Source: Candidatus Gastranaerophilales bacterium (GTDB taxonomy: Bacteria > Cyanobacteriota > Vampirovibrionia > Gastranaerophilales > Gastranaerophilaceae). Taken from it: a DNA stretch of 47,535 nt. The notes beneath the pieces are model-generated. The model did no database searches, had not been told where the DNA came from, and worked only from the letters and a program-made list of their open reading frames with translations. Of this stretch, positions 15,241 through 18,200 are shown piece by piece (position 1 is the stretch's first letter; every line of letters begins with the position of its first letter). Location of the stretch: NCBI GenBank assembly GCA_944323115.1, contig CALURG010000026.1:1-47535 (forward strand). Direction: 5' to 3'. Both the position numbers and the translations under genes were made by a program.

Positions 15241-16245
15241 ATGACAAATAAAATAGAGAAATTCAGTACGGATGACGTCGATACAAATGATGAAAATACT
15301 GAAGTTTCCTTAGAAAAAATAAATGAAGAACCGGAAGATGAAGAATTGATTCTTTCGGTTGAAGAGCCAAAAACAGCAGAAAACGTTTCTTCCGTAAATG
15401 CGGATGATTCGGTTAAAATCTACTTGCAGCAAATAGGAAAAATTCCTCTTCTCACAGCAGAGCAAGAACTTGAAGTTGCAAAAAAAATTAAAGAAAAAAA
15501 TGATGATGCAGCCAAAGAAACTTTGGTAAATGCAAATTTACGTTTGGTTGTAAGTATTGCAAAAAAATACATAGGCAGAGGTTTGTCTTTTCTTGATTTG
15601 ATACAAGAAGGCAACATGGGGCTGATGAAAGCCGCAGAAAAATTTGATTATGCCAAAGGCTACAAATTTTCTACCTATGCAACATGGTGGATTCAACAGT
15701 CAATTACACGTGCAATCGCCGACAAATCAAGAATAATCAGGCTGCCGGTGCATATGATTGAAACGTTAAGCAAAATTAAAAAAGTCACGGTAGATTTGAC
15801 AACAGAATCAGGAAAAGTTCCGTCAAAAGAAGAGATTGCTTATCGTGTAGGCATTCCTGTTTCGAAACTTACCTCTCTCATAAAAGCCGCTCAATCTACC
15901 ATAAGTATAGAAACACCGGCAACGACAAAAGACGAATCTTCAAAGCTCGGAGATTTCATTGTCGATGAGTCTACAATATCGCCGGATTCCAGAGTTTCTC
16001 AGGAAAACCTTTTTGAAGATATTCAAAAAATGCTTAATCAGCTCAGTCCGAAAGAAAGAGATGTGCTTATCATGAGATACGGGCTTAATGATGACGGCAA
16101 CAGAAAAACGCTCGAAGAAATAGGCTCACGCTACGGTGTTTCAAGAGAGCGTATCAGACAGATTGAAAACAGAGCAATAAGCAAACTGAAAAAACTTTGC
16201 AAAAACAACAATCTGACAAAAAGTTTAAAAAATTACTTTAGCTAA
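15241..16245 (+). CDS. rpoD: RNA polymerase sigma factor, RpoD/SigA group
   Basis: 334 residues. An acidic N-terminal tail (about 1-52) replaces a typical region 1.1. Region 1.2 starts at [17 protein letters not shown]. Region 2 is highly conserved: [39 protein letters not shown], and [19 protein letters not shown] for -10 recognition. Region 3 is present, and region 4.2 has [20 protein letters not shown] for -35 recognition. It directs core RNA polymerase to TTGACA/TATAAT promoters, and several promoters of that type occur in this window. The conservation suggests the primary sigma factor, but a group 2 paralogue cannot be excluded. AGGAGA precedes the ATG. A gene-free 491-base stretch follows. 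Confidence 0.93.
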
Positions 16246-16382
16246 TACCTGAATATTGTGCGGTAATCAAACACAAAATTTTTAGCATATTATGTTTTTG
16301 TATTCCTGAACTTAATTTGTACAGCCGCAAAGTTGTGCAAATCAAGGAAAGTATCTTAATAAATTCCGGCAGAAAAACGCAT

Positions 16383-16415
16383 AAAAAAAAGCTATAAACT
16401 TAGGGGTTCATAGCT
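16383..16415 (-). terminator. Terminator of the candidate small RNA
   Basis: On the minus strand AGCTATGAAC and GTTTATAGCT pair (one wobble) around CCCTAA and run straight into eight Ts. No minus-strand protein gene upstream could explain it. On the plus strand it lacks a T tract, so it does not serve the sigma-factor gene. Confidence 0.82.
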
Positions 16416-16568
16416 ATTAGATTAGGGATATGCGTATCGTCGTCTTTATTTAAGGAGTATAGTGTTATTCTACACATACTTTAGTTGTAGAAAATCATAC
16501 ATTGTTATGAATAATTTTTTGTATCTTCATCTGTTTATTTGATACAAGCATGACTTTTGAGAAAAAAT
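16383..16568 (-). ncRNA. Candidate small RNA, about 186 nt, unassigned
   Basis: No protein gene lies between the sigma factor and the TPR gene (16246-16736), yet the minus strand carries a complete transcription unit. A near-consensus promoter (16575-16602) would start RNA near 16568, and a strong hairpin with eight Ts (16383-16415) would end it. The RNA can fold. Perfect 7-bp hairpins occur at 16519-16525/16541-16547 and 16468-16474/16486-16492. An alternative hairpin (16456-16465/16472-16480) competes with the second. A long-range helix (16430-16438/16541-16551) could close the molecule. Length and rod-like closure recall 6S RNA, but I see no diagnostic sequence, so the family is open. No convincing reading frame occupies the transcript. 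Confidence 0.6.
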
Positions 16569-16574
16569 CATTAA

Positions 16575-16602
16575 ATTATAGGAGTCTCAGACCTGTGGTC
16601 AA
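16575..16602 (-). promoter_or_regulatory. Sigma-70 promoter driving the candidate small RNA
   Basis: TTGACC (16597-16602), a 16-base spacer and a perfect TATAAT (16575-16580) on the minus strand. It is one of the best promoter matches in the window and points away from the TPR gene into the gene-free stretch. Confidence 0.72.
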
Positions 16603-16605
16603 AAA

Positions 16606-16705
16606 ATCGGCATGCACAACTTTAGTATAAACGTACGATTTCACACAAAAAAACTAAACTTGTGTGCATAAAAACCGATATCGACTATAGGGCATTATGA
16701 CCGAT
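16606..16705. promoter_or_regulatory. Repeated GCAT/CCGAT boxes upstream of the small RNA
   Basis: GCAT-N5-CCGAT occurs twice as a direct repeat (16666-16679 and 16692-16705, 26 bases apart). A related inverted copy, ATCGG-C-ATGC (16606-16615), abuts the small-RNA -35. The inverted copy pairs with the first direct copy to make a long imperfect palindrome (16606-16620 with 16660-16679). Inside it, CACACAA/TTGTGTG is perfect. These look like binding sites shared by the small RNA and the divergent TPR gene. The binding protein is unknown. Confidence 0.45.
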
Positions 16706-16736
16706 TGGGCAGTAAATTTAAAAGGGTATAAAAGTT

Positions 16737-18200
16737 TTGTATAACAGTATTTATCCTGTACAAATAAAACCTTATGTACCACCGCAGACTTCAAAGGGTG
16801 CGGTCAAAAACAGTGAAGAAGAACAGGAATCCCAAAAATCGGCCAATGACCCTCACAGGGAACGCTCAAACCGTACGGAAGCAAATTCTTCTACAGACCC
16901 TAACGGTAGAAGAAATGCATATTCTCACAATCAATTTCCGAACGGTCAAAAAACTACAATAGATTATTCAAAATCAAAAGTAAACATTGCCCAGATACTT
17001 ACCGATTTTAAAAATACTGCCCTTGCAATAGGCTCTCCTCCAAACATTATTCAAGAGGTTGACCAGTATCTTGCTCTTGCGGAAACCCAGTCTTTAAAAA
17101 ATGAACCCAACAAAAAGATTATACAGTCTAACCTGAAAAATGCTTCAACTGTTCTTGATGATTTTATTTCAAAGACTTTGAATAAAAAATCAAAAGTAGT
17201 TGAAAACTGGATTGATGCACTATTTTTACAGCAAGTTGACTACAAATCCGACCCCGAGACAATAAACCCTGATTTTCTTGTAAAACTGCCCGACAAAGAA
17301 ACAGGCGATATGAAGCCTATTTCTCAAAATTTGTCACAAAAAATCCAGCCTCAAGAAACACAAAGCCCCGACCAATCACAACCCCTGCAAAATGAAAATC
17401 AAGAGGAAACCAGTGCAGAAAACAAACACTCCGTATACATTCCTCAAAACGAACAGGTCAGAAAAGCCTTTATTCAAGGTAAAAAATATGCGGCAATAAA
17501 TGATACCGAAAAAGCCAAAAAAGCTTTTATGTCTGCTCTTGAAAATGCTCATCTTGTCGGTGACAACAAAGCCGAAGGTATGGCTTCATACGAACTTGGC
17601 CGTATTTTTGATAGTGAGGACAATCTTGAAGAAGCCTTGAAATATTATCATCAAGCCCACAAATCCACTGATGACAACAACTTGAAGGCAAAAGCTTATT
17701 ATTCTATGGCTCAAATTTACAATGATGTTGTATATTTTGAACCGGCAATGAATCACTATTTTGCCGCAATTTCCTTTGCCGGAGAAGCAGAAAACCTCAA
17801 TGCCCAAACAAAAGCCCTTGCGGATATAGGTGATATGTTTGCAGAAAGATATGACGTGTCAAAAACTCACGAATTTTACGACATTGCAAAAAATATTGCA
17901 CTGGAAACACAAAACAACAAAACAATGGGAGCAATTTGGTCACGTTGCGGAGATTCTATGGCTGTTATAAACGAAAATGTAAACGCCCTGCAAGATTACA
18001 AAGCTTCCGCACAATTTTATGAAGAAGCACAATCTCCCCTGAAAATGGCAAGAAATTACGAAAAAGCATCCGATGTTATGTTGAATCTCGGCAACAAACA
18101 AAAAGCAATAAACCTCTTGGACAAAGCACAAAAACTTGCTCTCAAAGCCAATGATTCCGAATATGCGGACAGGATTTCCTATCAGCTTAAGCTGTTATAA
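16737..18200 (+). CDS. TPR-repeat protein with unknown N-terminal region
   Basis: 487 residues from a TTG start; AAAGGG lies ten bases upstream and there is no alternative in-frame start for a long way. Residues 20-75 are polar and low-complexity. Residues 80-180 are a helical region I do not recognise (KVNIAQILTDFKNTALAIG). A Q/P/S-rich linker follows. From about 240 to the end, at least five tetratricopeptide-like helix pairs occur, for example KAFIQGKKYAAINDTEKAKK, GMASYELGRIFDSEDNLEEA and KAYYSMAQIYNDVVYFEPAM. There is no signal peptide or membrane helix, so it is probably a cytoplasmic scaffold. It heads a run of three plus-strand genes without recognised function and is divergent from the candidate small RNA. 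Confidence 0.8.
   Translation: MYNSIYPVQIKPYVPPQTSKGAVKNSEEEQESQKSANDPHRERSNRTEANSSTDPNGRRNAYSHNQFPNGQKTTIDYSKSKVNIAQILTDFKNTALAIGSPPNIIQEVDQYLALAETQSLKNEPNKKIIQSNLKNASTVLDDFISKTLNKKSKVVENWIDALFLQQVDYKSDPETINPDFLVKLPDKETGDMKPISQNLSQKIQPQETQSPDQSQPLQNENQEETSAENKHSVYIPQNEQVRKAFIQGKKYAAINDTEKAKKAFMSALENAHLVGDNKAEGMASYELGRIFDSEDNLEEALKYYHQAHKSTDDNNLKAKAYYSMAQIYNDVVYFEPAMNHYFAAISFAGEAENLNAQTKALADIGDMFAERYDVSKTHEFYDIAKNIALETQNNKTMGAIWSRCGDSMAVINENVNALQDYKASAQFYEEAQSPLKMARNYEKASDVMLNLGNKQKAINLLDKAQKLALKANDSEYADRISYQLKLL

Follow-up and report, generated by a model that had tools for sequence, protein, structure and literature searches.

A predicted C-rich small RNA of the Gastranaerophilales and a putative operator shared with a sigma-28-type gene

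The window, a stretch of 47,535 nucleotides of Candidatus Gastranaerophilales DNA, contains on the minus strand of 16383-16602 a conserved RNA gene, which comparison between genomes marks out as real but which differs in outline from the one drawn in the preliminary description. The predicted product is an RNA of ~78 nt (16383-16460, minus strand; both ends inferred), in which a C-rich and mostly single-stranded 5′ part is followed by a terminator. We consider it fairly probable that this is a single-copy, trans-acting C-rich small RNA (sRNA) of the Gastranaerophilales, sharing its operator with a sigma-28-type gene and acting as a repressor that pairs with Shine-Dalgarno (SD) sequences. The preliminary description had reported a transcript of ~186 nt with its own promoter and terminator, and had suggested either a divergent 6S RNA or a new regulatory RNA; its observation was partly confirmed here and its interpretation partly supported.

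The gene lies in a gap correctly described as gene-free, with no open reading frame of 80 aa or more between an rpoD-type primary sigma factor gene (15241-16245, plus strand) and the gene for a TPR-like protein (16737-18200, plus strand), whose TPR matches are weak and under the Pfam cut-offs. The sRNA appears to have its own promoter and intrinsic terminator and is not the leader of a conserved gene; as it runs toward the 3′ end of the convergent rpoD, it leads no downstream gene here. The position beside a sigma factor gene, to which attention had been drawn earlier, is true of this genome but specific to it. Within the ~1.5 kb examined, rpoD was found at 1 of the 21 loci from the genus (two of these loci have less than 0.5 kb downstream), and a functional link between the sRNA and rpoD was rejected on this adjacency. 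The divergent TPR gene is present beside the sRNA at all 21 genus loci, and the neighbouring genes differ between groups of loci.

Conservation in relatives had been set as a test of the original proposal, and a DNA similarity search with the interval matched 52 of 59 genomes, its own included, at E ≤ 1e-3; in one of the 52 (G005) the match lies only outside the conserved core. A covariance model, R1, which scores the window's own copy (G000:C26:16385-16460, minus strand) at 83.4 bits and E 1.8e-17, that sequence being itself in the model's alignment, matched 161 of 289 genomes of the class at E ≤ 1e-3. All 161 belong to the same order, with one match per genome except in G303, which has two, at contig ends. 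Within the genomes searched, comparison places the predicted sRNA in the order Gastranaerophilales. When 27 genomes, comprising earlier negatives and members of other orders, were searched with relaxed model scoring, only G045 and G048, of family f6, yielded convincing matches, and the sampled members of genera g39, g40, g44 and g3 contained no credible copy. Extending the model search to the phylum (292 genomes) added only weak cyanobacterial matches, in five genomes with E values from 6e-4 to 9e-3, which we judged to be chance and for which Rfam gave nothing credible. Four of the five have in common a stretch that appears to be antisense to an SD-bearing gene leader; this conserved stretch (L263, L265-L267) resembles the sRNA core (ATACTCCTTA..ACACATAGTCCCAAT).

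A pattern scan of named genomes returned at least 114 stretches. Among the 80 listed, 53 carry the names Gastranaerophilales, Melainabacteria, Caenarcanum or Cyanobacteria, 23 are named only as 'bacterium', and four as Muribaculaceae, Fusobacterium or Acinetobacter. Three of these four contigs (L093, L119 and L122; Muribaculaceae, Acinetobacter or Fusobacterium) have clusters of neighbouring genes in common with other sRNA loci and look mis-binned. L103 is also a foreign-labelled contig with the sRNA and is probably mis-binned. Viral contigs gave no exact match to the sRNA pattern.

Outside the genus the 3′ part alone is kept, and reads [A/G]UACUCCUU, a variable linker, GAUACACAUAUCCCUAAUC and a GCUAUG..CAUAGC-U terminator. 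Motif 1, AUACUCCUU (16452-16460, minus strand), contains an anti-SD-like CUCCUU and would begin at nucleotide 2 of the RNA, given the inferred +1. Motif 2, CAUAUCCCUAAUC (16420-16432, minus strand), follows after a linker that varies across loci. Its core CATATCCCTA is present at 51 of the 52 loci fetched by DNA similarity, the sole miss being L022, which is cut by a contig end, and motif 1 as TACTCCTT stands ahead of motif 2 at 50 of the 52, the misses being L022 and L072, the latter lacking motif 1 only. These 52 loci provide the selection-free motif count. Alignment A1 (35 sequences, made up of L166 and 34 of the 89 distinct RNAs) includes loci from the pattern scan; since that pattern contained segments of motifs 1 and 2, the invariance of these columns in A1 is partly by construction. 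The two f6 loci found by the model only, L384 and L385, keep UACUCCUU and lack motif 2; a UCCCU motif is nevertheless kept, since AUCCCUGA sits in the terminator loop.

The terminator proposed earlier, a minus-strand hairpin at 16415-16390 followed by Ts to 16383, is confirmed. Its loop is C-rich (AACCCCUAAGU) and its stem is conserved and covaries: four of the seven pairs change on both sides, 99.6% of cells are paired, and the covariation score was reached by none of 500 shuffles. By a scan of the region alone it would be at chance level (two terminator-like sites found, against 1.9 expected). At the other end, the block conserved across families starts right after a -10 box, TAGAAT (16467-16472, minus strand), and for this reason we place the +1 near 16460, which with an end at 16383 would give an RNA of ~78 nt. 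The fold of this RNA has a z score of -3.13, owing mainly to the terminator, and the consensus fold consists of a 4-bp helix and the terminator. Most of the modelled RNA is single-stranded, and it does not form the long, bubble-bearing rod typical of 6S RNA.

The inferred promoter of the sRNA has a conserved -10 box. TA...T at -12, -11 and -7 is common to 77 of 81 distinct promoters, and TG at -15/-14 is found in 65 of the 81, the window's own promoter being without it. Further upstream lies a dyad, TCAT-AACAATGT-ATGA (16495-16510, minus strand), at -50 to -35, which we interpret as an operator. As TCAT-N8-ATGA it is exact in 53 of the 81 promoters, compared with 0.48 in shuffles, and with at most one mismatch it is found in 77, compared with 9.9; in most it starts at -50 or -49. 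A search with the combined pattern of dyad and -10 box found 112 sites in 58 genomes, compared with 8 sites for a reversed control. At loci L024, L041, L074 and L151 we observed TTTACATTATTTTACA direct repeats upstream of the operator, which we take to be reminiscent of the cyanobacterial HLR1/RpaB element. A second dyad, TTTAATGATTTTTT..AAAAGTCATG (16549-16575, minus strand), appeared in secondary matches of the DNA search and is confined to the genus; several members also have it upstream of a second fliF-like gene.

The same operator precedes other genes. A FliA/WhiG-family sigma factor gene (TIGR02479; 237.7 bits, cut-off 189.6) is present in all 25 genomes searched, including some with only a weak FliF match, and in 11 of these 25 genomes, fetched by protein, an exact TCAT-N8-ATGA lies upstream of it (9 of 23 distinct regions, two having been merged as duplicates). 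In the examples read the dyad stands ~25 nt before a TAGAAT-like -10 box. The wider set comprises 37 distinct regions upstream of the sigma gene, 14 of which entered it through a search with the operator pattern. The exact dyad also stands at the sigma gene in single members of g39, g40 and g44, and one g3 member has it with one mismatch. The dyad and -10 box also mark the promoter of an SF1 helicase gene (AAA_11/AAA_12), directly upstream of it at the six genus loci inspected and in four further genera (L343, L345, L348, L353, L355, L364-L368). As judged from sequence, the sRNA is part of a small promoter set that shares one operator with the sigma-28-type and helicase genes. Exact dyads upstream of fliF-like genes (10 of 30) were not counted, as outside the genus they fall, as read, within the last part of the preceding gene's coding sequence.

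A simple flagellar tie by co-occurrence was rejected, as the sRNA and strong FliF matches do not coincide. FliF (TIGR00206) matched in 230 of the 289 class genomes, in 104 of them above the cut-off; by eye, the sRNA is absent from g39 and g40 genomes with strong FliF, among those listed, and occurs in genera whose FliF matches are all weak. We also observed a second, divergent FliF-like protein of ~540 aa, below the TIGR00206 cut-off (L059-L070, L295-L314), which seems nearly universal in family f1 and occurs also in f1 genomes without strong FliF.

How the RNA should be drawn has two competing answers, both of which go back to the preliminary description. One is a 186-nt transcript from TTGACC-N16-TATAAT (16575-16602, minus strand), in which the conserved upstream blocks would be RNA. 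This promoter is indeed present and matches the consensus at 11 of 12 positions, the upstream block is conserved within the genus, and the 186-nt interval folds with a z score of -3.03. Its hexamers are not conserved, however (by eye, TTGACC at 1 and TATAAT at 4 of the 21 genus loci), and such sites occur at chance in the region, with seven promoter-like sites found and 9.3 expected from shuffles. The 5′ helices of the longer transcript fared unevenly in alignment A2, which holds 19 of the 21 genus loci (L018 and L020 were left out). One is mostly broken, with 49.6% of cells paired, and the other two are kept at 90.5% and 95.9%, with 12 of their 19 pairs invariant and none changing on both sides; one of the kept helices includes the -10 DNA. 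Taken together the 5′ helices covary no more than shuffles (81.8% paired against 81.4%; covariation 0.047 against 0.049). With the nearer upstream block being the dyad at a fixed distance from the -10 box, and the farther blocks vanishing outside the genus, we regard the longer transcript as very improbable, and its boundaries were rejected on conservation and on the pair counts.

The other answer is a divergent or second 6S RNA. 6S RNA is a long rod with a central bubble that mimics an open promoter; it binds RNA polymerase and templates pRNA. The likeness of our RNA to 6S is limited to the 186-nt size estimated earlier, which no search supports, and in contrast to the rod its consensus fold is the short helix and terminator described above. 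The 6S family model, RF00013, gave no match in 16250-16750 at E ≤ 10; the only match in this genome lies elsewhere (G000:C12:1153-1334; 33.4 bits, cut-off 46.4; E 3.8e-5 in a 501-base scan). Across 40 genomes RF00013 matched in 36, in 13 above the cut-off. We therefore rejected membership of the 6S family, and hold an RNA that binds polymerase in this manner to be extremely improbable here.

As had been noted earlier, the RNA bears no family signature: no Rfam family reached its gathering score in the whole window, the interval itself had only chance matches at E ≤ 10, and in six relatives none matched across the sRNA at E ≤ 1. A weak cmscan match to sbrA (RF01489; 16 bits, E 1.5) is far under the 45-bit gathering score and at chance level. 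Closest in spirit is Yfr1, described in PMC2190773 as an RNA of 54-69 nt, near-universal in its clade, with an ultraconserved unpaired ACUCCU-type motif and a 3′ terminator; there a 5′ stem-loop of 6-10 bp precedes the motif ACUCCUCACAC. Judged against that description, our sRNA is likewise small and clade-wide, with an unpaired ACUCCU-type motif and a 3′ terminator, but it does not contain ACUCCUCACAC: motif 1 reads ACUCCUU and is followed by the variable linker and a second motif. Nor does it have the 5′ stem-loop, motif 1 standing at the 5′ end if the +1 is placed as above. There is also a likeness to the C-rich sRNAs of Staphylococcus and Bacillus (IsrR, FsrA, RoxS/RsaE), likewise unpaired, C-rich, SD-pairing and from AT-rich genomes; for IsrR and FsrA, PMC9410917 describes unpaired C-rich stretches that pair with SD regions in AT-rich genomes. 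These RNAs differ from ours in showing no sequence relation by cmscan, and in their clade and promoter control. Search listings of the literature contained no small RNA or 6S RNA paper for Melainabacteria, Gastranaerophilales or Vampirovibrionia. The earlier suggestion of a new regulatory RNA is supported by the conservation, the single copy per genome, the predicted promoter and terminator and the lack of an Rfam family, and our best reading is a new family of a known kind, a base-pairing sRNA.

By analogy, the sRNA most likely works by pairing its unpaired C-rich motifs with SD regions. A putative activator would bind the dyad near -42 and recruit the housekeeping RNA polymerase in a class II geometry. 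The sRNA would then use its CUCCUU and (C)AUCCCUA-type motifs to pair with the SD regions of several mRNAs and lower their translation, probably without Hfq. An Hfq model matched in none of 30 genomes; it also missed a control cyanobacterium, so a divergent Hfq could escape it. Using 1097 open reading frame starts, guessed from the loci examined rather than annotated, complements to motif 1 (CUCCUU-type) were found at 48, compared with 14.9 expected, an enrichment that is unspecific because ordinary SD sequences would give it. Complements to motif 2 were weakly raised at the same guessed starts (39 compared with 21.2, sd 13.3). The motif-2 11-mer TTAGGGATATG occurred 67 times in 50 genomes, 33 of these being the sRNA gene itself; that leaves 34, fewer than the 52 of the reversed control, and the 11-mer was rejected as a target tag.

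The absence of a conserved mRNA target in the 11-mer and sigma-28 leader tests, together with the strong sequence conservation, would also suit an RNA that binds a protein through its conserved stretch, as a sponge or ribonucleoprotein. We think this unlikely, although it is the main rival to base pairing: the motifs are C-rich and resemble anti-SD sequences, the linker differs between loci, and where motif 1 (L072) or motif 2 (L384 and L385) has been lost, another UCCCU motif is still there. An incoherent loop, in which the sRNA represses the co-regulated sigma-28-type mRNA, is suggested by the same operator on both promoters and by G-rich sigma leaders in several genomes (by eye). Here the duplex energies between the sRNA and the sigma-28 leaders were no better than for shuffled leaders (mean z -0.14, 17 genomes) and gave no support to this mRNA as a target, which makes such a loop very improbable.

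It is possible, though we put this forward tentatively and with considerable doubt, that the base-pairing sRNA serves as a master riboregulator throughout this order of non-photosynthetic gut cyanobacteria, independent of Hfq and co-activated with the FliA/WhiG-type sigma factor and the SF1 helicase, also in lineages with weak FliF. If true, the alternative sigma factor, the SF1 helicase and the C-rich sRNA would belong to one regulon. With its single copy, its conserved C-rich motifs and a defined operator, the RNA is a well-bounded riboregulator candidate for these little-studied gut bacteria. The putative operator gives a handle on the regulon, including the sigma-28-type factor of the Gastranaerophilales, and both the sRNA and the operator regulon can be searched for in existing metatranscriptomes.

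The leaders of ffh and fliF-like genes contained scattered short complements to the sRNA only. In genus g42, two leaders of the second fliF-like gene (L301 and L313) have GAUUAGGGAU, a 10-nt complement to motif 2, at the SD position; by a rough estimate this is about chance over 1097 leaders. Many ffh genes (L041, L083, L121, L144 and others) look leaderless, with a TATAAT-like box a few bases before the ATG.
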